This document shows, one piece after another, positions 3,001 through 29,831 of a stretch of DNA of 29,831 nt; the stretch's first letter is position 1, and the number at the start of each line of letters is the position of its first letter. This DNA is from a virus. Under the pieces are notes generated by a model that ran no database searches, was not told the origin of the DNA, and was given only the letters and a program-made list of their open reading frames with translations. Position numbers and translations under genes: made by a program. The stretch lies in the IMG/VR virus record IMGVR_UViG_3300025684_000051, positions 1 through 29,831 of that record; one strand, given 5' to 3'.

Positions 3001-6000
3001 GAAATTTTAGCAGCACCCATTACGTCTTTAGCGTTGTACTCTATGAGCTGTTTTAATGCTTTTCTAACTTTTGGTCTGTTAAGTATCTCTGGCTTATTCT
3101 CTAAATCCATTGTTTCTTGAGCCTCGCTGAAGACAGATTTCCAAGAGCTCGGGCTTTTTTCTTGCTCATCCGCAAGATTCATTATAGCCTCTGTATATTG
3201 ATCCATGTCCAGCTCTCCATTTCGAAACATTCTGTCGTACATAGACCTCTTTTCAGAGATGCTAAGCAAATTCCCATTTCCTCTTGACAGCCCACCACTA
3301 AGTTTGTTTTTGCTCTTCCAAAAGCGCTCAAATGACCTAAGATGGTTAATCGTAGATTTGTTAATATCTGAATTCTCGGATGCATTGTTTAATTCTCCAA
3401 ATAATTCTTTTTGACCTATCCTAAACAAGTCCTTAAATCTGAAAGAAGAGTCTATGTCTGAATCATTAATATATCCTATTGAGTTTAAATCGGTATACAG
3501 ATTCATCAACTCTTCGAACCTCAACCTTTTATCGCCTCTAGTTATTTCGTCGTATTGCTTTAACCTTTCCTGAATTTCAGTATTTAATCTTTCGTTATTT
3601 ACCCTCGTATCTTTTCTGTTAAATATCTTATACTCTATTCTAGCCTTCAATTCGTTATAAGCCGCATCTACAATAGCTTCATCCATGTTTTCGATGTTTT
3701 TCATCGTCATCCAATGGTGTCCGATTTCGTGTTTCGGAGATGTAGCAGCTAAAGACTTATCTAGATCACTCATGTTTTCATCCTTCAGAACGGACCTTAT
3801 CTTATAGTCATTAACAAATGTGAGCCCATAGTTAGCGTTTGCGTTAGCTGTTAGTATTTCAAGAGCTGTATTAGGGTCTTTTCTTATGCTTTCTATGAAT
3901 TCAATCCTTGATTTTTCAGGGAGATTATTAAATGACTCGTCATTCTGTAATTGAAATATAAACTTATCAGCAAGTTTATTTAAGGTTTCGGCATCTACAC
4001 TGTCATTATTCTCAATTTTTTTAGCAATATCATTAGCTGCGTTTACAAGACCCATATAATTATCTCCCATCTTGAAGAAAGACCTTCCGGATTTTGCTTT
4101 TGAAACGCCTAAAGCCGCCTTATAGTTGGCCATAAGAAGAAAATCCTTTGCGTTCAAATCAGCATCTTCTTGACTGGTTAATTTAGCTATTCTATCATTA
4201 TATGAGTTGTACTCTTTATTCAGATCAGTAAGTATAGATTGTACATTTTTGTTTTGTACTTTATCTCCTTGCGTTATCTGCTTTCTTGTTAACTCAGTAA
4301 CTTTATTTTTTACCTGAGCTTTCTTGTATGTCAAGTCATATACCTCTTGAAATTCCTCACTGCTCAATGACAGCATTTTAGCCCATGCGTTCTGTTCGTT
4401 TATAGATATTTCGCTAAGCAATTTCTTATACTCCTTATCAGCTTCCATCCTTTGGCCGTAGTCTAAACTCCTATCATTTAAGATGTTTTTATAGTTCATT
4501 AACTTGCCAAATTGCTCTTTTCTTCTAGCGTTCTCTATAGCGTTGTTCACCAATGGAGACATTGCGGATATGGAACCAAAAGCGAGACCGCTTCCCCCTG
4601 AATTTATCAAGATATTGGCAGTCATATCCCATGTTGTTATATCCGATATGTCTTGCAGTATTTTGTCAAAACTTCTTCCTTGACCAAGCCACAAGTTATC
4701 TACTAGAGTTTTATCCATGTATGCTATTGGGTATTCCTCAGAAAGTTCTCCAAGCGTCATACCACCTCCCTTTTTAAGTAGTTTCAACTTGCTTGGGTCG
4801 TAAAATGCTTTCCCTATTTTAGTTCCTTCGAATAGTTTGCCTACTCCTGGCACTTTCAACTGCCCAGTACCCAATGCTCCAGCCAATCTAGTTATTCCGC
4901 CTTCAATTACACCACTCATTACAGCAGAATAAAATATGTCGCTATCGGTGTGTTTTAACATCTCTAGCTTTTCTATTTCCGATATTATCTGATCTTTATT
5001 GTCTGCGTTTTCTGGGTTTTCTAATGATTTAGTAAGGTGCTCTATTTGAGCTCCTATCATCCTATTATAATATTTTAAGTCTGATTTCTTTTGCCCTACT
5101 TGTGATAAGCCAAATATCGTAGGAGCTATAACTTGACCTCCAGGCAACGCATACATCATGACGCTGCCTACTGTAGATGCTGCGTTAGAGGCAAGAACCT
5201 CTCCGATATAATCGCCAAATGAAGCTTTCCCAGATTTAAAATCATCTAAATTCAATGGTTGAGCTACATTTTTCCATCTTTCATCAAATGCAGATGTTAT
5301 TTCTTCCTCTAAAGCATCTTCTCTCTCTATGCTTGCAGACGGAGTGATTACAGATAAACCAATCACAGTTTTACCTAGAAACCTATCGACGTCTCTAAGC
5401 GCCATTGATGATTTCCGGTAATCAGTAGCTGCTGCTTTCTTAATATTTTCATCAAGATTAACGTCATCAGTCATAGACATTAACTCTGTACTATCTTTTA
5501 TTAACTCATCTCTTAACCTACCTATCGCGTTAAGCTTGTTATATATATTGTTGTAAGAAGGAGAATTATATATATCCATAAATTCGTCAAGCAGAACCAT
5601 AGCTTCAGACTCACTTGTCGCTGACTTTATTTTTTGCTCTATATTAAGTAGCTGGCTATTAAAACTTTTAACTTGATTAACAAGTAGTTCTACATTATTA
5701 TTATCCCTAAAGTCACTTATCGTTTTTCTTTTTAGGTCTAATTTAGCTTTTAATGCAAGAGCTTTGTCGATGTTAGAACTGGAATCGTATTGGAGAAGAT
5801 TTCCAACTACCTCTTGTTCGGCCTCGTCGTACTTCCTCATGAAGTATCCAAGCTCTTTATCTCTTTTCTGGTTTAATGATTCCTTCTCGACATATAATTC
5901 ATCTACTCTTTCTGATATTTTTTTTGACTCAGATTCACTTTCAGATTCATAAGTCTCATTTAATAAAGCGTTTATTTCGTCCTGCTTGCGTATTATTTCG

Positions 6001-6890
6001 TTATCAATAGGACCTAACACATCGGACTTATATTTATCAACCTCGTCGTTTATAGATATAGTCTTAGTTCTTTCCACAGGTATCGTTCCTCTACCAGTAT
6101 CTACATATTCTGTATAGGTTTCTGTTCTGGTTAGCTCTGGGGCTTTACTGCTTACAGTCACCTCTGGAACCTCTAACCCTCCGGTTTGACCTCCTTGTTT
6201 AACGCTAACTCCATACTTTGGGTTGTTAATGAAGCTTTGTAAGTAAGATGATGGAGATACGTTGTACTGGTTTGCAGCTTCTATGATTTCCTTTTTGTTA
6301 TACATGACCCCTTCGTCGCCTAGTCCAGGTCCTTTTATTATATATGAATCTCCAAGTGTTTTATCAAAATCTTTGTCAATGAAGGTAATATCCTTATACT
6401 CTTCTATTGTTAACGGAATCTTTTTGCCGTCCTTTATGTAAAAATCAGCTATAGCAGTATCAGATTCAATGTATTCTTCTTGAGAGCCCAAAGAACCATC
6501 TTCCAATTTGGATTCCGTAACGGGTGCTTGAACTTCTTCCGCAGTCGCACCCGTATCCTGCGGTGTTGTCTTTGATTGCTTCGGAACAGCTCCTTGCATT
6601 AAAGCCTCAGACATAGCCGCATACTGATCCTCTTGACTTGGTGTCTTTGCTGTAGGAGTTGTTTCTTCTACTTCTGGTTTTTGTTGAGTAGATGTCATAC
6701 CTTCACCTACACCCAAAAGTACTTTAAAGTCATCTATACTCTTTGTGTATCCTTTTGATTTGAAAAGATTATAAGAGTCGTTAAGAGCCTTTTCGTTTGA
6801 ATTTATCAGTTTTACGTAGTCATCTATACTCTTTGTGTATCCTTTTGATTTAAAAAGAGTATAAGAGTCGTTAAGAGCCTTTTTGTTCAT
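1..6890 (-). CDS. giant virion/ejection protein with HEIGH motif (C-terminus cut by window edge)
   Basis: An open frame starts at the ATG at 6890 and runs off the left edge, giving 2296 complete codons with no stop that I could find by reading it. The N-terminus holds two 30-residue repeats (LFKSKGYTKSIDD core). A Pro/Thr/Gln-rich linker follows, then long charged helical stretches. Three small-residue-rich, membrane-like segments lie near residues 560-590, 650-675 and 755-785. A zinc-metallopeptidase signature HEIGHH is at residues 1054-1059. The last visible part (about 2095-2290) resembles the large polyvalent-protein-associated domains of marine phages. It is the third and largest of three consecutive genes of increasing size, like T7 gp14-gp15-gp16. 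I infer that it is packaged in the capsid and ejected with the DNA, perhaps degrading peptide or protein barriers. A tape-measure role is less likely because no tail tube gene is seen. The start overlaps the upstream stop by 20 bases. Confidence 0.8.
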   Translation of the reverse strand, partial: MNKKALNDSYTLFKSKGYTKSIDDYVKLINSNEKALNDSYNLFKSKGYTKSIDDFKVLLGVGEGMTSTQQKPEVEETTPTAKTPSQEDQYAAMSEALMQGAVPKQSKTTPQDTGATAEEVQAPVTESKLEDGSLGSQEEYIESDTAIADFYIKDGKKIPLTIEEYKDITFIDKDFDKTLGDSYIIKGPGLGDEGVMYNKKEIIEAANQYNVSPSSYLQSFINNPKYGVSVKQGGQTGGLEVPEVTVSSKAPELTRTETYTEYVDTGRGTIPVERTKTISINDEVDKYKSDVLGPIDNEIIRKQDEINALLNETYESESESESKKISERVDELYVEKESLNQKRDKELGYFMRKYDEAEQEVVGNLLQYDSSSNIDKALALKAKLDLKRKTISDFRDNNNVELLVNQVKSFNSQLLNIEQKIKSATSESEAMVLLDEFMDIYNSPSYNNIYNKLNAIGRLRDELIKDSTELMSMTDDVNLDENIKKAAATDYRKSSMALRDVDRFLGKTVIGLSVITPSASIEREDALEEEITSAFDERWKNVAQPLNLDDFKSGKASFGDYIGEVLASNAASTVGSVMMYALPGGQVIAPTIFGLSQVGQKKSDLKYYNRMIGAQIEHLTKSLENPENADNKDQIISEIEKLEMLKHTDSDIFYSAVMSGVIEGGITRLAGALGTGQLKVPGVGKLFEGTKIGKAFYDPSKLKLLKKGGGMTLGELSEEYPIAYMDKTLVDNLWLGQGRSFDKILQDISDITTWDMTANILINSGGSGLAFGSISAMSPLVNNAIENARRKEQFGKLMNYKNILNDRSLDYGQRMEADKEYKKLLSEISINEQNAWAKMLSLSSEEFQEVYDLTYKKAQVKNKVTELTRKQITQGDKVQNKNVQSILTDLNKEYNSYNDRIAKLTSQEDADLNAKDFLLMANYKAALGVSKAKSGRSFFKMGDNYMGLVNAANDIAKKIENNDSVDAETLNKLADKFIFQLQNDESFNNLPEKSRIEFIESIRKDPNTALEILTANANANYGLTFVNDYKIRSVLKDENMSDLDKSLAATSPKHEIGHHWMTMKNIENMDEAIVDAAYNELKARIEYKIFNRKDTRVNNERLNTEIQERLKQYDEITRGDKRLRFEELMNLYTDLNSIGYINDSDIDSSFRFKDLFRIGQKELFGELNNASENSDINKSTINHLRSFERFWKSKNKLSGGLSRGNGNLLSISEKRSMYDRMFRNGELDMDQYTEAIMNLADEQEKSPSSWKSVFSEAQETMDLENKPEILNRPKVRKALKQLIEYNAKDVMGAAKISEYEKESFIDDVIDGWGGKTGLAHRLKTYDPSLKKLNGYLTDKVRQEALNLANSTKYKKEQYNVRTDDYEAGYDIAYQDNFDEAFDHVLFDEGDVLIDPISIFKDKKFESKASAEVRSKFNTSEKAKMFFGDTSNLVTESLSEKFQIREERFLKETGQLNADELNSSAKIIFDAAEDIYNILPDANYVLDPASAEGRGISVNMKRLLMDKFYEVDLTRPEVNPSTGRLKREFEEGVAKTGKKVTGASSGIVKFKKEFNKSEFLSMLGINEDGTNNSLRGKSDEANLRLATLRQIGKLITNTEGRKIMEEMGIPAQMIVDFGAGRSKNMLSTGKTFTRPKFNVIDSELNITEENIKETIESLDSDEDLYRYGNYMMSQIMNDEELSDTFFKMVLKLYELRATRSKASTLLMMHPGIKGVFNKKGVDAKSVLKGLAEIYKNKKDSRILSEYSQKAYDAISNLINNDNLTKDIAKYVFHYDADNRSKVSPGKFNISDRTKRYANNTRSEFDKLESVDNKLFFSNLLSSEINAYLRRTVGQDYETRLKFVEGIIEKSKKYNSLKLNIRNTIISGLNDMLSDPSLTKEQYSEAVAYTTYSLINTGAGTKNLVEISKNHSMISENTLIRGDKSTISINEKKKQDPNARHRAYVQIEHAVTTSSYDVQAAMSAITGKMPSSNYRYRGGIVDSYYARDIDSRGVRLIMNGVKNIDVDYKTHLTGRRYKELRTVAEKDGARIFSASKAFTQENGLGSNPESKTDRANLEYVTANILKKATGISIDEQISESTARLNSDRRKKKFRFMSPSAEDFTGFWYSFLGKGKEGDAQKAFFEKYLTEPLNRAYVAMTHARQKITRDFKDLNREYEDVKVSMPKSSGYLKYTNDQALRAYLYLKSGNTNSLLGISEADAKALNDIVLSNPRMLEYATYLQELTGTTDSWVGPKSKWTFGSIFEDVERIIDDVKRAEYISEWKKNADAIFSSDNMNKIESHYGTDFRNALEDMLYRI
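6728..6887 (-). repeat. in-frame tandem duplication, 90-base period
   Basis: Two copies of about 70 bases (6728-6797 and 6818-6887) are almost identical, with about three or four mismatches, and start exactly 90 bases apart. They encode two copies of a 30-residue unit with core LFKSKGYTKSIDD at the N-terminus of the giant protein. The copy nearest the start codon also overlaps the last 20 bases of the upstream 492-residue gene. The near identity suggests a recent duplication or gene conversion. Confidence 0.9.
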
Positions 6891-15815: not shown

Positions 15816-17204
15816 TTAGTTCAATAACATGAAGTTGTTAGCTCCCTGAACGATTAAACATCTTTCAGAAAGGTAGTGAACCTCCATTGCATCTAAGCTA
15901 GATGTAGAAGCGCCACCCACAGAACCAGTAATCCAGCTCTTCATTCTACGGTCGTCAGCCTCAGAAGCGCGATAACGAACATGAAGGAAAGGACGCTTAA
16001 TGTTCTTGCCAAGGATTTGGTCGTAAACAGTTGAAGTTCCAGCCGGAACAAGAACGCCACGAACACCTCCTACAAGGCCACGAGTGGTAGCATCATTTAG
16101 GTATTTCCAGTCAGTCTTATAGAAGTCGTAAGAGCCTCTGCGGAAACCAGAGAATCCAAGATTCAAAGCCATATCCTCAGAGTTATTAAATACCCCATAA
16201 GAAGTACCTCCAGCGCCATAAGAATTTTGAGCGGCAAGCATATCGTCAATACCCAAAGAAACATCGCGATTAGCAAAAATCATATTTTCTTCAATAGATC
16301 CTTGTTTATCTAATTTCTTTAAGATTTCGTCAAAAGAACCAAGGTCATCAGCGGCAGATGAGCCAACAACACCAGTTGTAATGTGGCCACGATCTTCAAT
16401 TGCAGCAAACAATCCCTCAGTACCAGAAACTTCGGTTAAATTTACGTTTGTAGCAGACTCAGCTTCAACCATAGCCATTTCCATGTAGTCTTCAAAGCGA
16501 GAGCGAACATCACCCTCGGCTTTGATGTACCATAAATATCCAGTTTGACCAGACTCTCCAGTTACTTCAACCCATCCAATTTGAGATGCATCAGATCCAG
16601 AGATTTCATATTTATCTTTAAGGATAATTGGCTTGTTTGTTAATGACGTGTGCTGAGGAGTTATAGCTTGAGACATTCCACTAGTTCCTTTTCCAAACTC
16701 AGAACCATAAACAAATAAAGATGCGTTTGCAGCACTAGCAGCAATAGCAGATGTGTATGATTTAACAGAGATTGCATTTCCATCGCTATCTGGGTCAGAA
16801 TTAACCACATAAGCCTTGAAAATGCTTCCAGCAGTGTCTTTAATAACTACAGTCTGACCATCTCTAATAGCGTGAGATGTTAGACCTGTAATTTTTTGAG
16901 CCCCTCCAGAAACAGCGGCTACAGTTGCCCCATCATAAGAGATGTGCAAACGGCCTTGTTCCGTCCAAATGACTTGATCAGATGTCATAGGAGCCTCTGA
17001 GCCAGTTGCGCGTAAAAATCCGGATACGGTACGATCGCCGTAACGCTCTACCTCAGCCTCATAAAGGTCGGGTAAGTATTGTTGTGCCCATCCAGCTGTT
17101 CCAGCAGCTGTAAAGTCGATATAATTGCTTTCTAGTGTTTGTTTTACAGGTGAAGCGTTTGCTAATATAATATTTCCACCTGCAGTTGGAGTAATTGCAG
17201 CCAT
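15816..17204 (-). CDS. major capsid protein, 462 aa
   Basis: The protein has the make-up of HK97-fold capsid proteins of crAss-like and marine phages. Its N-terminal arm is followed by WAQQYLPDLYEAEVERYGDR (residues about 39-58), then SGFLRATGSEAPMTSDQVIW. An insertion rich in Ala/Gly/Ser (about 90-180) precedes a core with YLWYIKAEGDVRSRFEDYME and a later segment with ENMIFANRDVSLGIDDMLAA. The C-terminus has FLHVRYRASEADDRRMKSWI. It lies between the scaffold gene and the connector genes, the usual place. The leader upstream is a run of A and T with no Shine-Dalgarno, typical of strongly translated Bacteroidota genes. A terminator-like hairpin follows the stop. It is the most likely client of the phage chaperonin, by analogy with T4 gp23 and gp31. 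Confidence 0.88.
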   Translation of the reverse strand: MAAITPTAGGNIILANASPVKQTLESNYIDFTAAGTAGWAQQYLPDLYEAEVERYGDRTVSGFLRATGSEAPMTSDQVIWTEQGRLHISYDGATVAAVSGGAQKITGLTSHAIRDGQTVVIKDTAGSIFKAYVVNSDPDSDGNAISVKSYTSAIAASAANASLFVYGSEFGKGTSGMSQAITPQHTSLTNKPIILKDKYEISGSDASQIGWVEVTGESGQTGYLWYIKAEGDVRSRFEDYMEMAMVEAESATNVNLTEVSGTEGLFAAIEDRGHITTGVVGSSAADDLGSFDEILKKLDKQGSIEENMIFANRDVSLGIDDMLAAQNSYGAGGTSYGVFNNSEDMALNLGFSGFRRGSYDFYKTDWKYLNDATTRGLVGGVRGVLVPAGTSTVYDQILGKNIKRPFLHVRYRASEADDRRMKSWITGSVGGASTSSLDAMEVHYLSERCLIVQGANNFMLLN

Positions 17205-18430: not shown

Positions 18431-20848
18431 TTACCTTGGTTCAAATTGCTCAAGACCAAAACCACCCATAGTATCAAAACCTGCTGATTCAAAGTCTTTT
18501 GGTGGTTTACTAGTCTTTCTTTGGTCTATCAATTCTGATTGTTGAGACGCTTGAATCTTAGTTCTTTTATCTTTTCTATCTTCCTTGTAGCTATCTCTTT
18601 CATTAATTACCTGCATTTCCATCTGTTTAAGCTTCATGTTAAGCTCAAACTCATGCATCATAAGCTCTTTCTTTAGCTGAGCTTCCCTTTCCAGCTTCTG
18701 CATCTCTAATTGAGACTTAATTTGCTCTAGCTGAGCGTCCGCCTGTGCAAGCGCCTGTTTCTTTTGCATATCAGCTTCAGCTGCTGCCTGACTAGACTGT
18801 ATGTTAGATTGTGTTTGAGCTTGCATCATCTGCATTTTCTCGATTCTATCATCTTCAGCCTTTTTGCGTCTTCTAAGTTTTAATAATTGATTAGCTAATT
18901 TAACGTTCTTAACATTTCTAACGTCTATCGCATCCTCTAAAGTGATCTGATCCCTCTGTAACGCTACTTGAATATTGCTCTCTAAGAATTGTTTTTCTTC
19001 CTCATCTGGAGATACATCTAAGAATATTCCGAAGTCATGTAAGTGCAGCTTTTGAACCTCCGCCAATGTGCCTACGTTCATTTTACCTATCCCGGATATA
19101 AAAGATGCTGTTGTATTTCCAAACTCTAGTACATCTGATATTCTTAGGCAAGATGCCTCTGCTGCTTTTAACGCTAAATACAATACAGACTGGACGATGT
19201 GTCTTGTAGCTGTATTTGAATTAGCTACCGCAAGCTTCTGTATTCCGACCAACGCATCTTTATCAGGGGTAGATCCATCTCTAGCCTCATTAAGACCCGT
19301 AACGTCTCTTATCATATTTAGATAATAGTTGTACGAATTTATAAGGCTTGTTATTTTAGCTCCTGCGTTAGATGTTTGTAATTCTTGTATTGGCACTCTA
19401 GAATGATTAAATTCACCATCTTGAGTCATAGACCTACCAATTACAGAACCCGTCTGGAAGTACATGTTTAATGCTTCTTGTGGGCTGTAGTTTGTTCCAT
19501 TTCCTAGATCTATTTCAGCAATACCATCAGCATCAAGGTAAACCCCATCTGGAACCATTCTAGATAAGACCTGCTGTAATTTTAAATGTGTAAGCTGAAT
19601 CATGTCAGCAAATGTAGTCATTCGGCTAACAAGGGATTCAACCTGTCCTTTGTATATACGAGGAGCTACTACATTGTAAGACATCTGAACTTTAGTGGTG
19701 TCAGACTTAGGGCGAACCATATTCTCAGCCATCTTCCACTCAAGAAGCGTATCAAGACCAATTACTTTTGCACCTGTGTATAGCACTTCTATAGACCTCT
19801 GAACCTTTTCAAATCTAGCTCTCTGGTCTTTTGGAGGGTTAAACGTATCGTCCTTCTTTATAATCTTATCAGCTCCAGTAGCCGTTTCTTTTAACTTATA
19901 TACTTGGTTCTTGAATGTTTTATATTCAAAGAACATAACGTACACGTTGTTAGTGTCTTCCGCATCGGAATAAGAATATGACCTACTAAAATTAAGGGCG
20001 GTATTTCCAGTTCCTTCTATTTTTTCTATATCCTCTGGGGTTAGGCTTGGGTATTGCTTTTTTAACTCAGCTATACTCATCCTGCGTACCTCTCCAACAT
20101 AATATAAATCATCAAAGTATGGAGATTCAGTGTATGAATAAACTAAATCTGACGGGTCCACATACTGTAATGTAATCCCTTCCGCTGTGTTAAATGAGTT
20201 TTTATGACATCCTATACCTAGAGTTACAATGTCGTAAGCTATCCTGTTTTGTAGTAATTCATATTTGTTATGGTCAAATATGTTAGATATAGCTTCTTCC
20301 GCTGCAATCTCAATAGATTGCTTGTAATCCAATTGCATGTGTAACTGAAGCTCTTCTGTTGACTCTGGAAGTTCTTCTTGATTAGTTTTAAACATGTTTA
20401 TTCCAAACTCCTGCTGAACAGCCTCTAAGAGCTGTCTATTCTGCATGTCGGAAAGTATATTGTTTAGATAATCTGTTTTCTGCTTTATAGACGCTGGATC
20501 TTGAGAGTATGCTTTAACCTCATAAGGTCTTTCACTTATCCCGTTAACAACGATGTCAACAAATTTAGGAATAATTGGGACTGGCTTCCAGTCTAAATTT
20601 AAATAAGATAAATCTCCATTTATAGATAATTCATCTTTGTATTTTTGTATTGACTGCTCTCCCCTAGCGTAAAGTCTTAACCTGTGAAAGTTGTCTCTAT
20701 TAGTAAGGTACCTCGTCGCGCCACCTTCTTTCTTAAACCACTCCCCTTCAATAGCCCTAGCTACATCAAGCCCATACTGTGTACTTGCTTTCTCTGCGTC
20801 ACTTACTGCTTGTGAAGGAAATATACCCTTTGGTAATGTCTTTTGCAT
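18431..20848 (-). CDS. portal protein, 805 aa
   Basis: This large portal-type protein follows the terminase directly (shared boundary 20848/20849) and precedes the scaffold gene. The N-terminal third contains NRDNFHRLRLYARGEQSIQK and then LNLDWKPVPIIPKFVDIVVN, a segment I associate with portals of crAss-like and marine phages, where about 800 residues is normal. The middle has IRDVTGLNEARDGSTPDKDA followed by LVGIQKLAVANSN, the usual portal stem region. From about residue 665 to 765 a long Gln/Met/Glu/Lys-rich coiled coil begins at RRRKKAEDDRIEK. It suits the barrel or crown that projects into the capsid and contacts internal proteins. The protein forms the dodecameric DNA channel and packaging-motor docking site. 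The C-terminal tail is Pro/Gly/Phe-rich. Confidence 0.88.
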   Translation of the reverse strand: MQKTLPKGIFPSQAVSDAEKASTQYGLDVARAIEGEWFKKEGGATRYLTNRDNFHRLRLYARGEQSIQKYKDELSINGDLSYLNLDWKPVPIIPKFVDIVVNGISERPYEVKAYSQDPASIKQKTDYLNNILSDMQNRQLLEAVQQEFGINMFKTNQEELPESTEELQLHMQLDYKQSIEIAAEEAISNIFDHNKYELLQNRIAYDIVTLGIGCHKNSFNTAEGITLQYVDPSDLVYSYTESPYFDDLYYVGEVRRMSIAELKKQYPSLTPEDIEKIEGTGNTALNFSRSYSYSDAEDTNNVYVMFFEYKTFKNQVYKLKETATGADKIIKKDDTFNPPKDQRARFEKVQRSIEVLYTGAKVIGLDTLLEWKMAENMVRPKSDTTKVQMSYNVVAPRIYKGQVESLVSRMTTFADMIQLTHLKLQQVLSRMVPDGVYLDADGIAEIDLGNGTNYSPQEALNMYFQTGSVIGRSMTQDGEFNHSRVPIQELQTSNAGAKITSLINSYNYYLNMIRDVTGLNEARDGSTPDKDALVGIQKLAVANSNTATRHIVQSVLYLALKAAEASCLRISDVLEFGNTTASFISGIGKMNVGTLAEVQKLHLHDFGIFLDVSPDEEEKQFLESNIQVALQRDQITLEDAIDVRNVKNVKLANQLLKLRRRKKAEDDRIEKMQMMQAQTQSNIQSSQAAAEADMQKKQALAQADAQLEQIKSQLEMQKLEREAQLKKELMMHEFELNMKLKQMEMQVINERDSYKEDRKDKRTKIQASQQSELIDQRKTSKPPKDFESAGFDTMGGFGLEQFEPR

Positions 20849-23062
20849 CTATTCTAGTATTTTTGAAATAGCTCCTGAGTTGTTGAATTTCTTAAACCCA
20901 AAATCAAGCTTTTTAACTTTCTTGTCTTCAGTAGGCTTGTATAAATGTCTATTGCAAGCCATAATTGCTAACCCAGAGCTAATAGCGGCATCATACCTTG
21001 TCCTATTGTTGATGTCGAAACCAGACCAGTCTTGAAGTGTTCTATCAAAATACATTGTCCCATAATTTCCATCTCCGATGTGTCCAACATATTTATCAAT
21101 ATAACTTTCAATAGCTGCGGCATGAGCCTGTTTTATATCTTCTCCAGAGTTAGGTATGCCACCTATTTCTTTTTCAGCATGAGATAATTTTGTGAAAGTT
21201 TTGTCTGGTCTATTCATTGAAAACCCTCTGTATCCCCTACGCTTAATATAATATAAAAGTCTTGGTTTGTTATTCTCCGCCAGTATAGGCATCCCATAAA
21301 ATATAAGTGCCATTAACACGTCTTCAAAGAATATCTCCGCTGTCTGCGGTCTAGCTATGTATTCTAAGAAGAATGTGTTACTTGGTGCTTCCTCCATGTT
21401 AAACTTTGTTAACCCATGCAAAGCACCTTTGGAGCCTCTCTTATCAACAGTTCCGGATATATCGTAACTATCGCAACCGAATGCTCCGATATGTTCGTTA
21501 CCTGGATATTTAACTCCATTTTTTTCTATTACACGATTTTGTAAATTTATACTTGGTATCCAGGACACCTTAAACCTACCATTTGATTCAGGGACAAACA
21601 TTACTCGTGTATCTTTTATGCCGTTCTCCCATTGAAAATTACCTTTTGTCACAACATTAGAATAACCTATTCCTTCATTGTAATCTATCTGTTCGTATAT
21701 CTTGACGAGGTTAAATATACTATTTTTAGTTTCATCTCTAAACGCGTGCTGCTCTGTTCTTGGGAACTGCCTGTAAAATTCGTTAAGACCATCTTGATCG
21801 TCCCTAAGCCCATCCGCTTCATTTTCCCAATGCTCTACAACACCTATTTCAATCTTTTCTCCAAGCGGGCCTTCAACTGGATTGGCTGGTGTATCGAATA
21901 CAGGTAATCCAAAAGTATCAATGTATCCTTCGTAGTTCCATTCCATAGGGATGAACAGACTATATAATCCACTGCGAGTCTGTCCATTCTTGTTTCGCTT
22001 TGTAACGTCTGAGTCATAATAAAGTTTTTTGAAGTTTTCCCCTCCTTTATCCAAGGCATTTGAGGTTGACCCCATCATACACTTCCCAGTTATTCGACTA
22101 CCAAGACGAAGTGTTGTTTTTGTAACCCTCCAGTTATTTAATATATTATCAGGTTTTAGCCATTTGCCAGCCTCATCATGGACTAATAAACTTAGTTTTT
22201 CACCATCATAAGAGTTGTCACCTGTATTTTTCCAGTCAATTGTAGTGTCAAGGCCCTCCATTATCTTAGCATCTTGAACATTGACTATATTCTTCTTTGT
22301 TAGTTTCGATGCTGGAACACGATAGGCTAACTCTGTTTTAGGCCTATCCATACCGTCTTGTATCGGCTTAAAGAAGAAAGGATAGTTTATTGATATTGGG
22401 ACAACCTTATCCGTAAACATCTTCTTGGCATCCCCACCAGACTTTGATAATATACCAAATCTAGAGTCAGAGCTTATTGTTGCTAGATTAACTGTTTCGG
22501 CAGAAGACATAAAAGAGAACCCAGAACGTCTATTCTTCAAATAACACATTCCGTAACATCTACTATCTACCTTACAAGCCTCCCAGAATATGAAAAACAA
22601 TCTGTTTGCTTCCCTAAAATCTGGCTTACCAACATCTATCTTAGTCCACTGCAAATACATATAATGAGATCCTGTAATATATGTAGGAGTTCCATTGTTG
22701 TAAAACCAATGACCGTCTTCACGTTTGGTAAATTCTGAATCAATATAACTATACCACTTTTCTTTAAACTCTTTTGGATATCCGTCCCACTCAAATATGC
22801 TTTTTATTTGCTTCAATTCCTTTGGATACTCAGACGCAATCCATTTGTTAGCTCCCTTTGGTAAGTTAGATGGTTCTTTTGGTAAGGCTATTTTTAGATT
22901 CTGTATCTCATATATATCACCAATCTGTCCAGTCTTGCTTATAACAACAATATCGTGTTCCTTGTTATATCCATATTCCCAGGCTTTTTTCTTATTAAGC
23001 CTTATAAGTGTGTTTGTCCTGATTGGTTCTACTATCCTGAATAAAGCATGATCTTTAGTCAT
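20849..23062 (-). CDS. terL: terminase large subunit, 737 aa
   Basis: This is the ATPase and nuclease that packages DNA into the prohead. The ATPase has a deviant Walker A (CYLKNRRSGFSFMSS, about residues 173-187), a Walker B (LLVHDE, 292-297) and a coupling-type motif GSTSNA (331-336). The linker has the terminase segment FYRQFPRTEQHAFRD (429-443). The RNase H-like nuclease begins with GAFGCDSYD, with Asp531 and Asp534 as likely metal ligands, and ends with an Asp-containing helix (NRTRYDAAISSGLA). The Walker A lacks the classic GxxxxGK[ST], as in other large phage terminases of this type. The start overlaps the preceding stop as TAATG. A chance-placed AAGGAG lies 9 bases upstream inside the previous gene and may help initiation. 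Confidence 0.93.
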   Translation of the reverse strand: MTKDHALFRIVEPIRTNTLIRLNKKKAWEYGYNKEHDIVVISKTGQIGDIYEIQNLKIALPKEPSNLPKGANKWIASEYPKELKQIKSIFEWDGYPKEFKEKWYSYIDSEFTKREDGHWFYNNGTPTYITGSHYMYLQWTKIDVGKPDFREANRLFFIFWEACKVDSRCYGMCYLKNRRSGFSFMSSAETVNLATISSDSRFGILSKSGGDAKKMFTDKVVPISINYPFFFKPIQDGMDRPKTELAYRVPASKLTKKNIVNVQDAKIMEGLDTTIDWKNTGDNSYDGEKLSLLVHDEAGKWLKPDNILNNWRVTKTTLRLGSRITGKCMMGSTSNALDKGGENFKKLYYDSDVTKRNKNGQTRSGLYSLFIPMEWNYEGYIDTFGLPVFDTPANPVEGPLGEKIEIGVVEHWENEADGLRDDQDGLNEFYRQFPRTEQHAFRDETKNSIFNLVKIYEQIDYNEGIGYSNVVTKGNFQWENGIKDTRVMFVPESNGRFKVSWIPSINLQNRVIEKNGVKYPGNEHIGAFGCDSYDISGTVDKRGSKGALHGLTKFNMEEAPSNTFFLEYIARPQTAEIFFEDVLMALIFYGMPILAENNKPRLLYYIKRRGYRGFSMNRPDKTFTKLSHAEKEIGGIPNSGEDIKQAHAAAIESYIDKYVGHIGDGNYGTMYFDRTLQDWSGFDINNRTRYDAAISSGLAIMACNRHLYKPTEDKKVKKLDFGFKKFNNSGAISKILE

Positions 23063-23349
23063 TATTTAGATCTCCTTTCTGCAAATCCTTTAAATACTTT
23101 ACTCTCGTCTTGCTCCTTAGGCTTATTCTCCAGCCTATCTTTCTCCTCTTCAACACGATTTAATATTTCAAAAGCATCAAAGATTGCGAGCTTTTTGGTA
23201 GCGGCAGCATTTTTTAATCTGTCACTACTTACATCGTCTTCAGTATTTGTTATTATCTTTTCCTCAGCAACCTTTATTAGCTCCTCAACTGCTCGATAAC
23301 CAGCCTGTATGATACTCCTCTTCGTCTCCTTGATATTCATATTGTACAC
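23062..23349 (-). CDS. possible terminase small subunit, 95 aa
   Basis: This small helical protein lies immediately upstream of the large terminase and overlaps it by one base. Its core reads RSIIQAGYRAVEELIKVAEE, then RLKNAAATKKLAIFDAFEIL and NRVEEEKDRLE. I remember this pattern from proteins that precede terminase genes in marine Bacteroidota phages. It is shorter than most small terminases and shows no clear DNA-binding helix-turn-helix, so the role rests on position. It overlaps the previous gene by an unusual 65 bases. The second Met at residue 4 would shorten the overlap to 56 bases without touching the conserved part. Confidence 0.6.
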   Translation of the reverse strand: MYNMNIKETKRSIIQAGYRAVEELIKVAEEKIITNTEDDVSSDRLKNAAATKKLAIFDAFEILNRVEEEKDRLENKPKEQDESKVFKGFAERRSK

Positions 23350-23890
23350 AAATAGAACTTGTTGGCACTCTGTAAAGCAATTCTCCGTCTATTACAAACT
23401 CGTATTCACTTTCTGGAGTAAAGCCAACTAAATCATTAAATTTAACACCATTTCTTTTTAGATCATTATCAACATATTTGATAATTCCTTTTAATTCAGC
23501 CTTAGAATCAACATTGAATTCATCCCTGTTCATCAACGGCTTAACGAAGCAGTAACCCTCAAGAGGCTTCCATTCTCCGTTTCTTTTATACATGTAGATC
23601 TGTTCTGAATCTACAAAATACTCATCTTCTTTATAATAGCTTTTAGAGTTCTTTTCATTTCCTCTAATATCATAGAACCTTCTAAAAACATTATGATGAA
23701 GCACAACTTCATCACCTCTTTTAATTCCTGTTTTTTCATTGACTGGAGTCTCAATAACAATACCTATCCTACTAACATATTGATGATTCTGCATTTCTGT
23801 ATTCAGTATTAACTCTGAATCCCCTATCTTTTTAGTATTTTCGTATCTTTGATTTTTTGGTTTTATGATAAAGCTATATAAACTCCTCAT
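23285..23890 (-). CDS. possible tandem GroES-like (double co-chaperonin barrel) protein, 201 aa
   Basis: Read as a whole the protein repeats the GroES strand order twice. First half: FIIKPKN (7-13), SELILN after a flexible stretch (25-30), RIGIVIETP (41-49), GIKRGDEVVLH (55-65) and YFVDSEQIYMY (91-101). Second half: YCFVKPL (113-119), LKGIIKYV (133-140), GVKFNDLVGF (148-157) and LLYRVPTSSICV (171-182). GroES shows the same order: a VIVK strand, a mobile loop ending in IVL, a GxVxxxG turn, VKxGDxVxF and a final S-x-DI strand. The tail after residue 187 is acidic and polar. The gene is in the run between the holin candidate and terminase, about 1.5 kb from groES. I infer a co-chaperonin or another barrel-fold structural protein. 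This is unproven and needs a structure prediction. Confidence 0.65.
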   Translation of the reverse strand: MRSLYSFIIKPKNQRYENTKKIGDSELILNTEMQNHQYVSRIGIVIETPVNEKTGIKRGDEVVLHHNVFRRFYDIRGNEKNSKSYYKEDEYFVDSEQIYMYKRNGEWKPLEGYCFVKPLMNRDEFNVDSKAELKGIIKYVDNDLKRNGVKFNDLVGFTPESEYEFVIDGELLYRVPTSSICVQYEYQGDEEEYHTGWLSSS

Positions 23891-24962: not shown

Positions 24963-25403
24963 TTATCTATCTTTATCTTTTAACATATCATCCATAGCTT
25001 TATTCATGACTTTGTCTGTATATGTTTTGTTTTCATAGAATACATTAACTCTTGATGTTGGCAAATCTTCTTTACCTAAGAGTATCCTGTACATCCTTGT
25101 TATAAGCATTTTTGTTTTTAGTGAGACGGCATATATATTATGCTTTCCAGATTTTCTGTCAGCAGATCTCCACACAACAACCCATCCATTCTTCTTAAAC
25201 CTAGACCAACGATGCTTGTCCCATGTATATATGTAGGTCCCTTCCTTAAAGTCATTTATAGTAAATCGCTCTAAAGCGTCAAGGTATATTAATAGTTCAA
25301 GATCGCTTTCAGTTATGCCATTTGTTTTAGCAGCCCATTTTCGAACTAATCTATAATATTTTAAAAACTTAATGTCCCTAAGATCCTCAACACTAATGTT
25401 CAT
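24963..25403 (-). CDS. winged-helix-like protein, 146 aa
   Basis: The helical first part (residues 13-45, KYYRLVRKWAAKTNGITESD then LELLIYLDALERF) is followed by a probable recognition-helix and wing arrangement. TINDFKEG, HRWSRFKKNGWVVVWRSAD and KHNIYAVSLKTKMLITRMYR (88-107) follow it. That layout fits a MarR-like winged helix, and I remember similar proteins from marine phages. The basic residues around 64-104 could contact DNA. It follows groES with a 4-base overlap. A late regulator or a DNA-binding packaging factor would both fit. No operator is visible nearby. The fold is inferred by eye. Confidence 0.6.
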   Translation of the reverse strand: MNISVEDLRDIKFLKYYRLVRKWAAKTNGITESDLELLIYLDALERFTINDFKEGTYIYTWDKHRWSRFKKNGWVVVWRSADRKSGKHNIYAVSLKTKMLITRMYRILLGKEDLPTSRVNVFYENKTYTDKVMNKAMDDMLKDKDR

Positions 25404-25660
25404 TCCACAAGAACTATATCTCTCTGCTTAATAACAGAATATTGATTATTATCAAAAAGAATATTGTGCCCTGAGTGCTTATCGTAATATATATTATCCG
25501 ATTCCTTTATTCCTTGTGTTAGATTCCCACAACTTATAATAACACCTTTCAAATACCGTATATCATCTGTTGTGTTATCTGTAAGAATAAAGCCTCCAAC
25601 CTGTTTTGGCTCCTCCTTAATAGGCTTGATAATTACATAATCATTTATTGCTTGCATCAC
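25400..25660 (-). CDS. groES: phage GroES co-chaperonin, 86 aa
   Basis: This caps the GroEL chamber. It has the GroES order: strand YVIIKPIKEEP (8-18), mobile loop ending GGFILTD (22-28, matching GGIVLTG of bacterial GroES, which docks on the apical domains), LKGVIISCG (38-45), a shortened middle with no clear roof loop, and QYSVIKQRDIVLVE at the C-terminus (compare VLIMSESDILAIVE). At 86 residues it is about 10 shorter than E. coli GroES, mostly in the roof region. The start lies inside the end of groEL with a 20-base overlap, which suggests coupled translation. The gene order groEL then groES is the reverse of the common bacterial groES-groEL order. Two adjacent Met codons make the exact start uncertain by one residue. 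Confidence 0.85.
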   Translation of the reverse strand: MMQAINDYVIIKPIKEEPKQVGGFILTDNTTDDIRYLKGVIISCGNLTQGIKESDNIYYDKHSGHNILFDNNQYSVIKQRDIVLVE

Positions 25661-27212
25661 CTATTCTTTTATTTGATATAATACAATCTGCTGACACAAT
25701 TGTTAAAGCAACACTAACCGCATTTTTTAAAGCTGTCTTGGTCACCAATGCAGGATCGATAATCCCTTTCCTAACCATGTTAACCATATTTCCAGTAGTA
25801 ACATCAACGCCTCTTCCGGACTGTTTATTCACTAATGGGAAATCAGATGATATTCCAGCGTTTTGTAATATTGTATGAAACGGAGCTTGAATTGCTCCTA
25901 ATAAAATCTTTTCAGCATCTGAAGACGGTTTTATTTTTAACGATGCATCCAACAAAGCTACCCCTCCTCCAGGAACAATACCTTCTTGTAGCGCAGCTTT
26001 AACCGCATATATTGCATCTTCAACCCTGTCTTTCTTCTCCTTTAATTCTACCTGACTCTGAGCCCCTACCTTTATAATTGCAAGAGAGCCATTTAACATA
26101 GCTAATCTTTGCTCTAGTTTCTTTTTAATATAAGGATTCTCTTCACTCTCTATTTTTTCAACAACAGTTTTGACCCTATCATCAAGACCATCTATCTCAT
26201 CAGCGACCTTTAGAACTGTGTTTTTATCAGTTGTAACAGCTTTTAACACTTCCCCTAATACAGAAGCATCCATTAACTCTAAATCATCCCCTAGAGACTC
26301 GTCAATGAGTTTTGCGCCAGTCAATAAAGCTAAGTCTTGTAGTGTGTCCAGCTTTGTTGGCCCGAACCCAGGCAAGTCCACTATATTAACTTTTATATTT
26401 CCTTTTACCTTGTTCATTAGTAACGCAGACATCGGCTGTTGCGATACCTCCCCGACAATTAAAAGGCTTCTCTTTTCTTTTATAATATACTCTAATATAT
26501 TCTGTATCTTTCTGACACTCTCTATTGGTGTTTTACTTATCAATATTAACGGATTATCAAGCTCGCATTTGTCTTTCTCTACATTTGTTGATAAATGCTG
26601 TGACTTTAATCCTGAATCAAAGCTAACTCCTTTTTGAAGGTCAATATATGTTTTATCAGTTTCTGACTCCTCCATTAAGACAATTCCATTTTTGCCTACA
26701 AACCTATATCCCTGAGCTATAATACGACCTAAGTCTTCATCGTTATTTGTAGATATAGAGGCTACATCTTCTAAGTTTTCCTCAGTAACATCTTTCTTTA
26801 TAGAGTCAATGTACTTAATAACTTTTTCTAGTGCAGTTTTAGTTCCGTTTTTCAACTCCCTAAAATCAAAATGACTTTGCCTTAACCGAAACAGAAGAGC
26901 ATCCGCTAATACTGTTGCGGTTGTTGTTCCGTCCCCGGCTTGTTTAACTGTGTTCCTTGCAGCTTCTTTTATCAGTGTAGCCCCCATATTTTCTACAGGA
27001 TCTATCAATATAACACTTTCAGCTACAGTAACCCCATCTTTTGTTATTATTGGTTTTCCAAGTGCATCTTCATAGATAACGCACTTTCCGGAAGCGCCAA
27101 GAGTGGAGCTGACCGCTTGGGCCAGCTTCTTCACTCCTCGACTTATTGCATCACTTGCATCCTTACCGAATGTCAAGTCTTTAACGATCTCACTAGGATT
27201 ATTGTATTCCAT
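25641..27212 (-). CDS. groEL: phage-encoded chaperonin GroEL (Hsp60), 523 aa
   Basis: A full-length group I chaperonin subunit, which folds protein in a closed chamber using ATP. Equatorial motifs: ITKDGVTVAE with Asp59 (E. coli Asp52), AGDGTTTATVLA with Asp94 (Asp87), KDRVEDA with catalytic Asp399 (Asp398), and EGIVPGGGVALL. Intermediate and apical parts include ENMGATLIKEAA and VDLPGFGPTKLDTLQDLALL. Differences from bacterial GroEL: the nucleotide-binding TLGPKG becomes TLGASG (37-42), the apical substrate and GroES-binding segment GYLSPYF becomes GLKSQHL (201-207), and the C-terminal Gly-Gly-Met tail is absent. All ATP-hydrolysis residues I checked are present, so it should be active. No CIRCE inverted repeat is seen upstream. 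Phage chaperonins are known from Pseudomonas phage EL and from marine viromes. Confidence 0.95.
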   Translation of the reverse strand: MEYNNPSEIVKDLTFGKDASDAISRGVKKLAQAVSSTLGASGKCVIYEDALGKPIITKDGVTVAESVILIDPVENMGATLIKEAARNTVKQAGDGTTTATVLADALLFRLRQSHFDFRELKNGTKTALEKVIKYIDSIKKDVTEENLEDVASISTNNDEDLGRIIAQGYRFVGKNGIVLMEESETDKTYIDLQKGVSFDSGLKSQHLSTNVEKDKCELDNPLILISKTPIESVRKIQNILEYIIKEKRSLLIVGEVSQQPMSALLMNKVKGNIKVNIVDLPGFGPTKLDTLQDLALLTGAKLIDESLGDDLELMDASVLGEVLKAVTTDKNTVLKVADEIDGLDDRVKTVVEKIESEENPYIKKKLEQRLAMLNGSLAIIKVGAQSQVELKEKKDRVEDAIYAVKAALQEGIVPGGGVALLDASLKIKPSSDAEKILLGAIQAPFHTILQNAGISSDFPLVNKQSGRGVDVTTGNMVNMVRKGIIDPALVTKTALKNAVSVALTIVSADCIISNKRIGDASNK

Positions 27213-28407: not shown

Positions 28408-29831
28408 TTAAGCAGGACCACCATCAACGATAGTCCATCCGTATGTTACTTGTAGAGATGTTCTTGCTGCTTCTGCTGCTCCACCTGCGGTGTATTTAGA
28501 ATTTCCAAAGCTTATTGATAACCCGCTTGTTGGTGCTTGTGCCTCCCACGCTATTAATGTAGCATCGTATGTAGCGGTAGGTATGGTAACGCCTACTGCG
28601 AAGTTTGTAAAGTTAGTGACTTGGTCGATGTCCCACGCACTAATATCTAAATTGGTTAATGATGTGCAGCCGTAGAATGTAGATACCATATTCGTAACAC
28701 TACTTGTATCCCATAAACTTACATCTAAGGTTGTTAAAGATGAGCAGCTAAAGAATGTATTAAGCACACTCGTAACACTACTTGTATCCCATCCACTCAC
28801 ATCTAATGTTGTTAATGATGAGCAGAAGGTGAATGTAGATTGCATACTAGTAACACTACTTGTATCCCATAAACTAACATCTAAGGTTGTTAAAGATGAG
28901 CAATTTAAGAATGTCTGATACATAGTAGTAACACTACTTGTATCCCAAGAGCTTACGTTTAATGCGGTTAAAGATGAGCAATCTCGGAATGTCGCATTCA
29001 TATTAGTAACACTACTTGTATTCCAATAACTGACATCTAAATCGGTTAATGATGAGCATCCATAGAATGCAATACTCATATTCGTAACGCTACTTAAATC
29101 AGGCGCATCAGAAGCGGTTACGTTAGTCAAATTATCGCAGCCGTAAAAAGCATATAACATTGAAGTCCAACCTACATTACCCCAATTACGAATATCAATT
29201 AACTTAGACCTGTCTCCTGTGTTATTGAAACGTATCTGACCTGTTGCGGCAGTAACCTTAACGTCATACGTTCCAACAGAAGGATATGTATGCGTTTGAG
29301 TGCCTGACAAACCAGCATCCGAACTACCATCTCCCCAATCAACATCATAAGTACCTACCCAAGGCAATGTAAATTGGTCTGAACTACTGGTACCTGCATT
29401 ATCTGTTTTAACAGTAATTATGAATTCAGCAGTATCTGTTTGTCCACTATCTGTTATACTCCAGCCAAAACCTCCTAACGCTTTATCTGTTGTTAGTTTA
29501 CGTTTAGCAGCATAGCTTAAATAGCTATTCTGACTACTTCCGAAGTTAATGCTTATAGTAGGGGTGTATCCAACGCCATCAGGGTAAGCTGTTTGTAATT
29601 GAGATTCCCAATTGTTTAGGATGTCATCGTATGTAGCAGTAGGTATAGTAACGACGTCTGCGAAACTTGTAAAGCTAGTGACTTGGTCAATATCCCATAA
29701 ACTAACGTCTAAATCAGTTAAGGATGAGCAATTTTGGAATGTCTGATACATCTGCGTAACACTACTTGTGTCCCAAGAACTTACATCTAATGTTGTTAAG
29801 GATGTGCAGTTACGGAATGCATAACCCATAT
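28408..29831 (-). CDS. BspA-type (DUF285) repeat and PKD-like surface/fibre protein, N-terminus beyond window edge
   Basis: At least 474 codons are visible. The first in-window ATG (29829) lies within a repeat, so the real start is outside. Order of visible domains: two DUF285 repeats (DTSSVTQM type, residues 1-50), a cap ending in WSITDSG (about 44-134), a PKD-like domain with YDVDWGDGSS (161-170) and HTYPSVGTYDVKV (180-192), seven DUF285 repeats (231-408), and a second cap ending in WTIVDGG. DUF285 repeats (PF03382) are common in bacterial surface proteins and some phage fibres. I infer a receptor-binding or tail fibre protein exposed on the virion. The repeat number could change by recombination. 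A moron-encoded host surface protein is an alternative. Confidence 0.75.
   Translation of the reverse strand, partial: MGYAFRNCTSLTTLDVSSWDTSSVTQMYQTFQNCSSLTDLDVSLWDIDQVTSFTSFADVVTIPTATYDDILNNWESQLQTAYPDGVGYTPTISINFGSSQNSYLSYAAKRKLTTDKALGGFGWSITDSGQTDTAEFIITVKTDNAGTSSSDQFTLPWVGTYDVDWGDGSSDAGLSGTQTHTYPSVGTYDVKVTAATGQIRFNNTGDRSKLIDIRNWGNVGWTSMLYAFYGCDNLTNVTASDAPDLSSVTNMSIAFYGCSSLTDLDVSYWNTSSVTNMNATFRDCSSLTALNVSSWDTSSVTTMYQTFLNCSSLTTLDVSLWDTSSVTSMQSTFTFCSSLTTLDVSGWDTSSVTSVLNTFFSCSSLTTLDVSLWDTSSVTNMVSTFYGCTSLTNLDISAWDIDQVTNFTNFAVGVTIPTATYDATLIAWEAQAPTSGLSISFGNSKYTAGGAAEAARTSLQVTYGWTIVDGGPA
28605..29139 (-). repeat. coding tandem repeats, 78-base (26-residue) unit
   Basis: Seven consecutive repeats encode units of the form CSSLTTLDVSxWDTSSVTxM (x varies), one cysteine each. 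The first unit has 27 residues and the following five have 26. The DNA is also repetitive, with the same phrases for DTSSVT reused in nearly every unit, which points to recent amplification. A further two units lie near 29680-29831. Confidence 0.9.

Follow-up and report, generated by a model that had tools for sequence, protein, structure and literature searches.

Phage-encoded GroEL/GroES pairs are already known, and chaperonins are said, in the title of a 2017 paper by Marine et al., to be prevalent in virioplankton. The GroEL-like rings encoded by EL, OBP and AR9 come from giant phages and are reported to act on their own, with no co-chaperonin; single-ring states of such viral chaperonins are known (PMC7185714, PMC5934643, PMC9598537). 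Phage T4 has a single-domain co-chaperonin, gp31, which uses the host GroEL and lacks roof loops (PMC6318259). In chloroplasts, the tandem co-chaperonin Cpn20, with two GroES barrels, occurs alongside Cpn10, which has one domain, and a ring of group I. The plastid Cpn10 and Cpn20 can assemble into mixed lids of seven domains, and a Cpn20 tetramer is considered to offer 8 loops for potential interaction; in these sources, tandem co-chaperonins are confined to chloroplasts, algae and the apicoplast (PMC5780408, PMC3542282). Here we analyzed the whole of the 29,831-base record IMGVR_UViG_3300025684_000051 (hereafter the window), from a virus that infects marine bacteria, in which a GroEL gene and a gene for a small GroES are accompanied by a third gene (23285–23890), located shortly before the terminase large subunit gene, for a predicted tandem two-domain GroES-like co-chaperonin that we call TES. 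Phage GroEL/GroES pairs being known, the tandem co-chaperonin is the new part: in the literature searched, mostly at the level of titles and abstracts, we found no description of a phage with a tandem or double GroES, or with two different co-chaperonins of which one is fixed beside terminase. TES and the loss of loops at inter-ring positions of GroEL, neither of which an earlier analysis of the letters (the sequence-only reading) had noted, are more unusual than the features on which it dwelt, that is, a divergent GroEL apical domain and a missing Gly-Gly-Met tail.

A predicted tandem co-chaperonin

TES matched the PHROG 13932 profile ('co-chaperonin GroES', E 6e-23) over residues 1–178. Because Pfam Cpn10 matched only 1 of 51 TES members and PDB sequence searches with TES or its profile gave no related chain, homology was sought by fold. 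An AlphaFold2 model based on 51 sequences showed a two-domain beta protein (predicted local distance difference test score, pLDDT, 81.6), whose best match in PDB was plastid Cpn20 (7ekq_R; Foldseek E 4.5e-6, template modelling score 0.56). Superposition on this chain extended over both domains (residues 1–185; Z 10.0, 157 residues, 3.6 Å). Cpn20 was also absent from the matches of the PDB sequence searches, and the likeness to it is thus one of fold alone. The next fold matches were single GroES chains on domain 2 with Z 7–9 (for ranks 2–6, 2.0–2.4 Å over 74–78 residues; Table 1). When domain 1 was modelled alone, from 111 sequences, the first 16 match rows were all of the GroES/Cpn10 type. 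Profile comparisons with hhalign pointed the same way for domain 2, which reached 94.4% against a merged GroES profile (score 45.3, versus a maximum of 18.6 in 20 shuffles and 15.1 for the reversed profile), 83.6% against bacterial GroES and 63.1% against phage GroES, and domain 1 reached 73.8% against phage GroES. In addition, domain 2 of the TES homolog of phage phi38:1 passed the Pfam Cpn10 cut-off (24.1 versus 21.1 bits, profile positions 32–93), and similar full-length proteins are present among predicted viral structures, one of them, from Cellulophaga phage phi18:3, under the name 'Chaperonin cpn10'. TES is therefore predicted, from its model, to be composed of two GroES-fold domains in one chain. 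The two domains had no detectable sequence similarity to each other (0.8%), so an internal duplication is not supported.

Domain 1 carries a KKxGDxxLILNTE-like loop with a hydrophobic tripeptide that 109 of the 118 non-redundant sequences retained. Leaving aside the C-terminal end, the model was least sure at residues 21–40 (blocks of 62 and 57), where a mobile loop is expected. The LIL tripeptide is closer to the GGLILT of the phage's own GroES than to GGIIIPD, the most frequent form in bacteria. The same domain has a nearly invariant HHN..RR segment that is absent from the small GroES. In domain 2 we found no mobile loop; the corresponding region is well ordered in the model and gapped in the profile alignment. 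TES thus resembles plastid and apicoplast Cpn20 in its two tandem barrels and in giving its best fold match over both domains, but Cpn20 is credited with a mobile loop in each domain, whereas TES has the motif in domain 1 only, and TES is viral and linked to terminase. We do not claim a common origin. One contig of 5.9 kb (L002, 3611–4209) contained TES in two overlapping frames, which corresponded to model positions 2–106 and 100–195, due to either a frameshift or an assembly error.

Linkage of TES with terminase and GroEL

A fair test of linkage must start from loci found by GroEL, for which we took the window and the best 80 relatives listed. TES was present just before terminase in all 53 of these loci that showed terminase (broken in L002), and in three further loci TES was present and the stretch stopped short of terminase. 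With the inclusion of 80 loci located through TES, the number of loci with TES rose to 136 (contigs not de-duplicated). The C-terminus of TES overlapped a gene of the 95-amino-acid type in 132 of them, and in 127 this overlapping open reading frame (ORF) was accompanied by terminase within 400 nucleotides; the remaining nine comprised five with wider spacing or longer overlap, three that end early, and L002. We further checked 30 whole records, namely the 25 without TES in the fetched stretch, that of L002 and four annotated phages, and found TES and terminase in exactly the same 19.

The same gene set occurs in annotated Bacteroidota podoviruses. Five TES-bearing genomes of four lineages were examined (Callevirus phi38:1 and Calle_1, one elemo phage of Elemovirus, Maribacter phage Panino, and MW202828, which is metagenome-assembled and uncultivated), and all five also had GroEL and a small GroES-like gene; the latter was found by profile in Panino, and the GroEL of phi38:1 is known from a published study (PMC13288928). 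TES lies directly before terminase in elemo, Panino, Calle_1 and phi38:1, and one gene, of the 95-amino-acid type, separates them in MW202828. The position of GroEL was determined for four of the five genomes, and in each it lies elsewhere, at a distance from the packaging module. Their GroELs were 38–39% identical to that of the window (four compared), and TES is annotated in these phages as 'co-chaperonin GroES', 'chaperonin cpn10' or hypothetical; the gene labelled GroES in the phi38:1 genome record is TES. In the same 2026 study, the methylated phage proteins listed for both infected cells and free-virion samples include phi38:1 GroEL, gp054 (PMC13288928). No TES was found in eight of eight other GroEL-encoding phages, nor in the crAss-like phages phi14:2 and cr111. 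In cr111 (L172, 5822–7473), a 'putative 10kDa chaperonin' gene is located three genes before terminase, and neither TES nor Pfam Cpn10 was found there; GroES-like genes near terminase may be more widespread.

Two observations concern the neighboring terminase. In elemo, Panino, Calle_1 and phi38:1 it has approximately 140 extra N-terminal residues, and the 95-amino-acid ORF type is replaced; that this ORF is a split-off of the long N-terminal part was unsupported (hhalign 5%). The terminase large subunit was also split over two matches in the records behind L197 (G027) and L193 (G044), with a single match in the other 18 of 20 records.

The phage GroEL and GroES

The window contains one Cpn60 match, a full-length GroEL (PF00118 cut-off 34.3 bits, profile positions 1–489 of 490). 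It matched PHROG 5725 ('chaperonin groEL') at 441 bits, passed the cut-off of NCBIfam PRK00013 (442.6 versus 397 bits) and fell under that of the stricter TIGR02348 (434 versus 582.1). The small GroES matched PF00166 (cut-off 21.1 bits). With terminase, portal and virion structural genes as neighbors, these matches bear out the sequence-only reading in its central claim of a GroEL/GroES pair among phage late genes. Its further claims were examined in 81 GroEL family rows, that is, the window and the best 80 of at least 599 relatives (75 of the 81 sequences distinct), using E. coli numbering. The residues that we take to bind and hydrolyze ATP (D52, D87, T89–T91, D398, G414 and D495) were kept in every row, and Asp59, Asp94 and Asp399, named in that reading as retained ATP-site residues, were invariant in a 17-row alignment. 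The change of TLGPKG to TLGASG is real, yet it is a trait of the family (81/81). The absence of a GGM-type tail was also correctly noted, and it extends to all 81 family rows and to 12 of 12 other phage GroELs, whereas 76 of 80 bacterial GroELs had such a tail. The reported loss of apical aromatic residues holds for the window (Y199L, Y203H and F204L) but is partial across the family, in which position 199 was L, I, M or V in all rows, 203 was H in 73, and 204 was F in 52 and L in 28; as a window-specific sign it was rejected. Thus, the divergent features exist, but they characterize the family rather than this particular phage.

Eight GroEL positions that presumably bind substrate and GroES were scored. 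Four of them (199, 204, 237 and 263) were hydrophobic in all 81 rows and a fifth (264) in 75, while positions 259, 203 and 234 (the last a Q) were hydrophobic in 39, 8 and none, respectively. Residues 237, 262, 263 and 265 of the groove were conserved in kind. As five of the eight positions stay hydrophobic, the groove is, judged from the alignment, altered rather than lost. The changed chamber volume and client choice, and the specialization for a single phage protein, that the sequence-only reading suggested are conjectural. In a different region, the loop around E434-D435 was deleted in all 81 rows, and gaps occurred at 463 (65 rows), 467 (73 rows) and A109 (45 rows), positions that we assume make inter-ring contacts in E. 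coli GroEL. From these losses we infer that the double ring of the phage GroEL is weakened or absent. The R197-E386 pair was lost (R197 to S or C in 79 rows, E386 to K in 75), and D83-K327, which we take to be a known salt bridge of GroEL, showed a charge swap (D83 to K or R in 80 rows, K327 to D in 53); allostery may have been rewired. Seven-fold ring assembly, ATPase activity and folding activity are predicted for this protein.

The GroES frame (25400–25660, minus strand) encodes 86 amino acids from a GTG at 25660. The next codon, the ATG at 25657, is the likelier start (85 amino acids) because relatives begin there, and from it the gene shares 17 nucleotides with the end of groEL. The overlap with the 3′ end of groEL was present in 85 of 87 loci; in the other two, a gap of ∼0.4 kb separates the genes (L071, 5654–6096, and L077, 2796–3213). 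The hydrophobic mobile-loop tripeptide is kept, as the sequence-only reading stated, with FIL in the window in place of IVL and GGLILT-like loops in the family; the commonest bacterial form was GGIIIPD (25 of 66). That reading was also right that the roof is short: the window GroES does not have the full-length roof hairpin of the dome and spans 9 residues there, whereas the E. coli protein has 18 and two flavobacterial rows have 13. A span of 9 was found in 23 of 25 phage GroES sequences, and among 66 bacterial ones the span was 13 in 22, 18 in 33 and 9 in 3. Because these three bacterial GroES proteins are equally short and T4 gp31 lacks roof loops, the short roof does not define the family, and its uniqueness was rejected. 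The window GroES resembles gp31 in this respect; the difference is that the window phage brings its own GroEL and a tandem second co-chaperonin.

Origin of the phage GroEL

The 80 best viral-contig relatives were 61–81% identical to the window GroEL. Annotated phage GroELs were more distant, the closest at approximately 38–39% and the listed giant-phage proteins at approximately 21–28%, and the best 80 cellular GroELs listed in a scan of a species-genome collection were 37–42% identical. A quick-search tree of 57 rows (16 of the 81 family members, 10 of 12 phages, 30 of 80 bacteria, and E. coli; phages JM-2012 and pTD1 were left out) placed the family on one side of a branch with a Shimodaira-Hasegawa-like approximate likelihood ratio test value of 98. 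A second branch (98) split the family, together with seven of the phage rows, from all 31 bacterial rows. The proteins of Bacteroides phage DAC23 and of two Vibrio phages nested among the bacteria, and elemo, Panino, Calle_1 and MW202828 were placed near the family on long branches, their exact places being unsure. Since identity to the cellular GroELs listed did not exceed 42% and the tree separated the family from the bacterial rows, the window GroEL is, on phylogenetic grounds, an old viral lineage rather than a recent host copy. The sequence-only reading had likewise argued against a recent host copy and had named near identity to a bacterial groEL, or a contaminating bacterial fragment, as the findings that would speak against it; the closest of the 80 cellular proteins was at 42%, and no contamination was seen, with the same gene order across viral contigs. 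That the segment is a recent bacterial groESL copy or a contaminant is thus almost certainly false, nothing having been found in its favor, and we rejected this explanation.

Gene layout of the window

The features discussed above belong to a minus-strand gene run of phage type, in which GroEL and GroES are followed by small genes, TES, the 95-amino-acid ORF, the terminase large subunit, portal and virion structural proteins (Table 1). The Calle_1 gene at the position matching 15816–17204 is annotated as major-capsid. Two ORFs stand apart from the chaperonin genes. The ORF at 28408–29829 (minus strand) contains many repeats of the form LDVSxWDTSSVT, which we take to resemble DUF285/BspA-type repeats; a DUF285-annotated gene is also present in an elemo phage. 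The ORF at 3–6890 (minus strand) is very long (at least 2296 amino acids) and runs past the end of the window.

Table 1. Features of the chaperonin and packaging region, with window coordinates.
Feature	Coordinates	Strand	Basis
GroEL, group I chaperonin, 523 amino acids	25641–27212	minus	PF00118, 176.8 bits; matches to group I chaperonins in PDB, E to 9e-104; ATP site kept in 81/81 family rows
TLGASG replacing TLGPKG (E. coli 30–35)	27087–27104	minus	P33A and K34S, 81/81 family rows
Apical segment GLKSQHL (E. coli 198–204, GYLSPYF)	26592–26612	minus	Y199L, Y203H, F204L
GroES, single domain, 85 amino acids	25400–25657	minus	PF00166, 49 bits; ATG at 25657
GroES mobile-loop tripeptide FIL	25583–25591	minus	Alignment of GroES sequences
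TES, predicted tandem two-domain GroES-like co-chaperonin, 201 amino acids	23285–23890	minus	PHROG 13932, AlphaFold2 model, fold match to Cpn20
TES domain 1 (residues 1–106), with mobile-loop-like stretch	23573–23890	minus	pLDDT 85.9; GroES/Cpn10-type fold matches, Z 5.7–7.9
TES domain 1 loop motif LIL (residues 27–29)	23804–23812	minus	L27 and I28 in at least 90% of 111 rows
TES domain 1 HHN motif (residues 65–67)	23690–23698	minus	117/118 non-redundant TES sequences
TES domain 2 (residues 107–201), predicted GroES fold without mobile loop	23288–23572	minus	Fold matches, Z 8.7–9.2; hhalign 63–94%
95-amino-acid ORF that overlaps the 3′ end of TES, candidate accessory gene for terminase	23062–23349	minus	Context
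Terminase large subunit, constant neighbor of TES	20849–23062	minus	PHROG 6681, E 9e-164
Portal protein	18431–20848	minus	PHROG 6547
Virion structural protein in major-capsid position, possible client	15816–17204	minus	PHROG 13704

Possible functions of TES

The explanation that we favor, and consider somewhat probable, is a three-part phage machine, in which a chaperonin ring is served by a GroES lid with a short roof and by a tandem TES lid made with the packaging genes. In this machine, GroEL would act as an ATP-driven ring that binds unfolded chains, and the small GroES, translated from the overlapping start, would be its everyday lid. The mobile loop of TES domain 1 would contact GroEL, and the loop-less domain 2 would serve as a structural segment of the lid ring, thereby altering the lid. 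TES, encoded just before terminase, would be abundant during the synthesis of capsid, portal and terminase, and could close the phage GroEL, by itself or in a mixed lid with GroES, over a capsid, portal or terminase client. Binding of TES to GroEL, its oligomer, its client and its co-expression are what we infer from these data. Several observations weigh against such a machine. Eleven of the 20 records that bear TES had no GroEL; these 11 are fragments of 19–42 kb, and the other nine hold GroEL. TES adjoins terminase even where GroEL is far away, which fits a packaging role equally well. The evidence for the fold of domain 1 is limited: its Z stays below 8, slightly above that of the related alcohol-dehydrogenase-type fold (7.9 versus 5.5), no Foldseek match had E <0.001, and hhalign gave 25.0% with the merged GroES profile (score 26.1, shuffles up to 16.4) and 15.1% with bacterial GroES; the Pfam Cpn10 match to a single TES member had E 0.017. 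Co-variation of GroEL and TES beyond terminase, for which a first run on 42 loci gave partial correlations of 0.56 and 0.64, was modest (0.48, versus 0.26 for GroEL-portal and 0.40 for TES-portal) after far outgroups and near-copies were dropped and portal was used as a control (21/25 loci), and for this reason we give it little weight. Finally, EL, OBP and AR9, viral chaperonins that have been studied, are reported to work with no co-chaperonin (PMC7185714, PMC9598537).

If TES were instead a protein of packaging or head assembly in which the GroES fold is reused without a chaperonin partner, the folding machine would be the GroEL/GroES pair only. This is a lesser possibility that still deserves serious attention, as it would account for the constant place of TES before terminase, which holds with GroEL elsewhere, for the absence of a mobile loop in domain 2, and for the HHN..RR segment of domain 1 that the small GroES lacks. 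However, the domain 1 loop keeps its hydrophobic tripeptide in nearly all sequences, every annotated TES-bearing genome examined also has GroEL, and the phi38:1 GenBank record names the portal and capsid products as structural and not TES, although this label rests on similarity to another phage and is therefore weak evidence. It is doubtful that the machine takes over the general work of host GroEL/GroES during infection, with many host and phage clients and no special phage client. A complete ATP site, a mostly kept groove and a GroES made in tandem with GroEL would suit this role, and the location of GroEL beside DNA-replication genes in Calle_1 and immuto hints at use before the late phase; in the window family, however, the pair lies upstream of the packaging genes and in the same orientation, and Q at position 234 and the loss of the 434–435 loop in all rows are unlike the bacterial rows. 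That the phage GroEL acts without any co-chaperonin, as described for EL, OBP and AR9, while the GroES-like genes serve otherwise, is very unlikely: inter-ring loops are reduced in the window family too, but GroES overlaps groEL in nearly all loci and keeps its mobile-loop tripeptide, and groove positions 237, 262, 263 and 265 remain conserved in kind.

A more specific form of the three-part machine, which we regard as tentative and rather unlikely, is modelled on the mixed lids of plastid Cpn10 and Cpn20. GroES and TES would together build a single lid of seven barrels, mixed in composition, over a phage GroEL that is mostly single-ring, a reinvention of the plastid arrangement. The share of TES in this lid would rise with the packaging genes, change loop number and dome, and turn the chamber away from general folding and toward a client of the capsid or packaging set.

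If TES does cap the phage GroEL, it would offer an independent case in which to ask how a seven-fold ring accommodates an even number of lid domains, and this in a viral system of small size, with the client expected among few phage proteins. The cultured flavobacterial phages phi38:1, Calle, elemo and Panino carry the same gene set, and phi38:1 GroEL has been seen by mass spectrometry, which places genetics of the system within reach.

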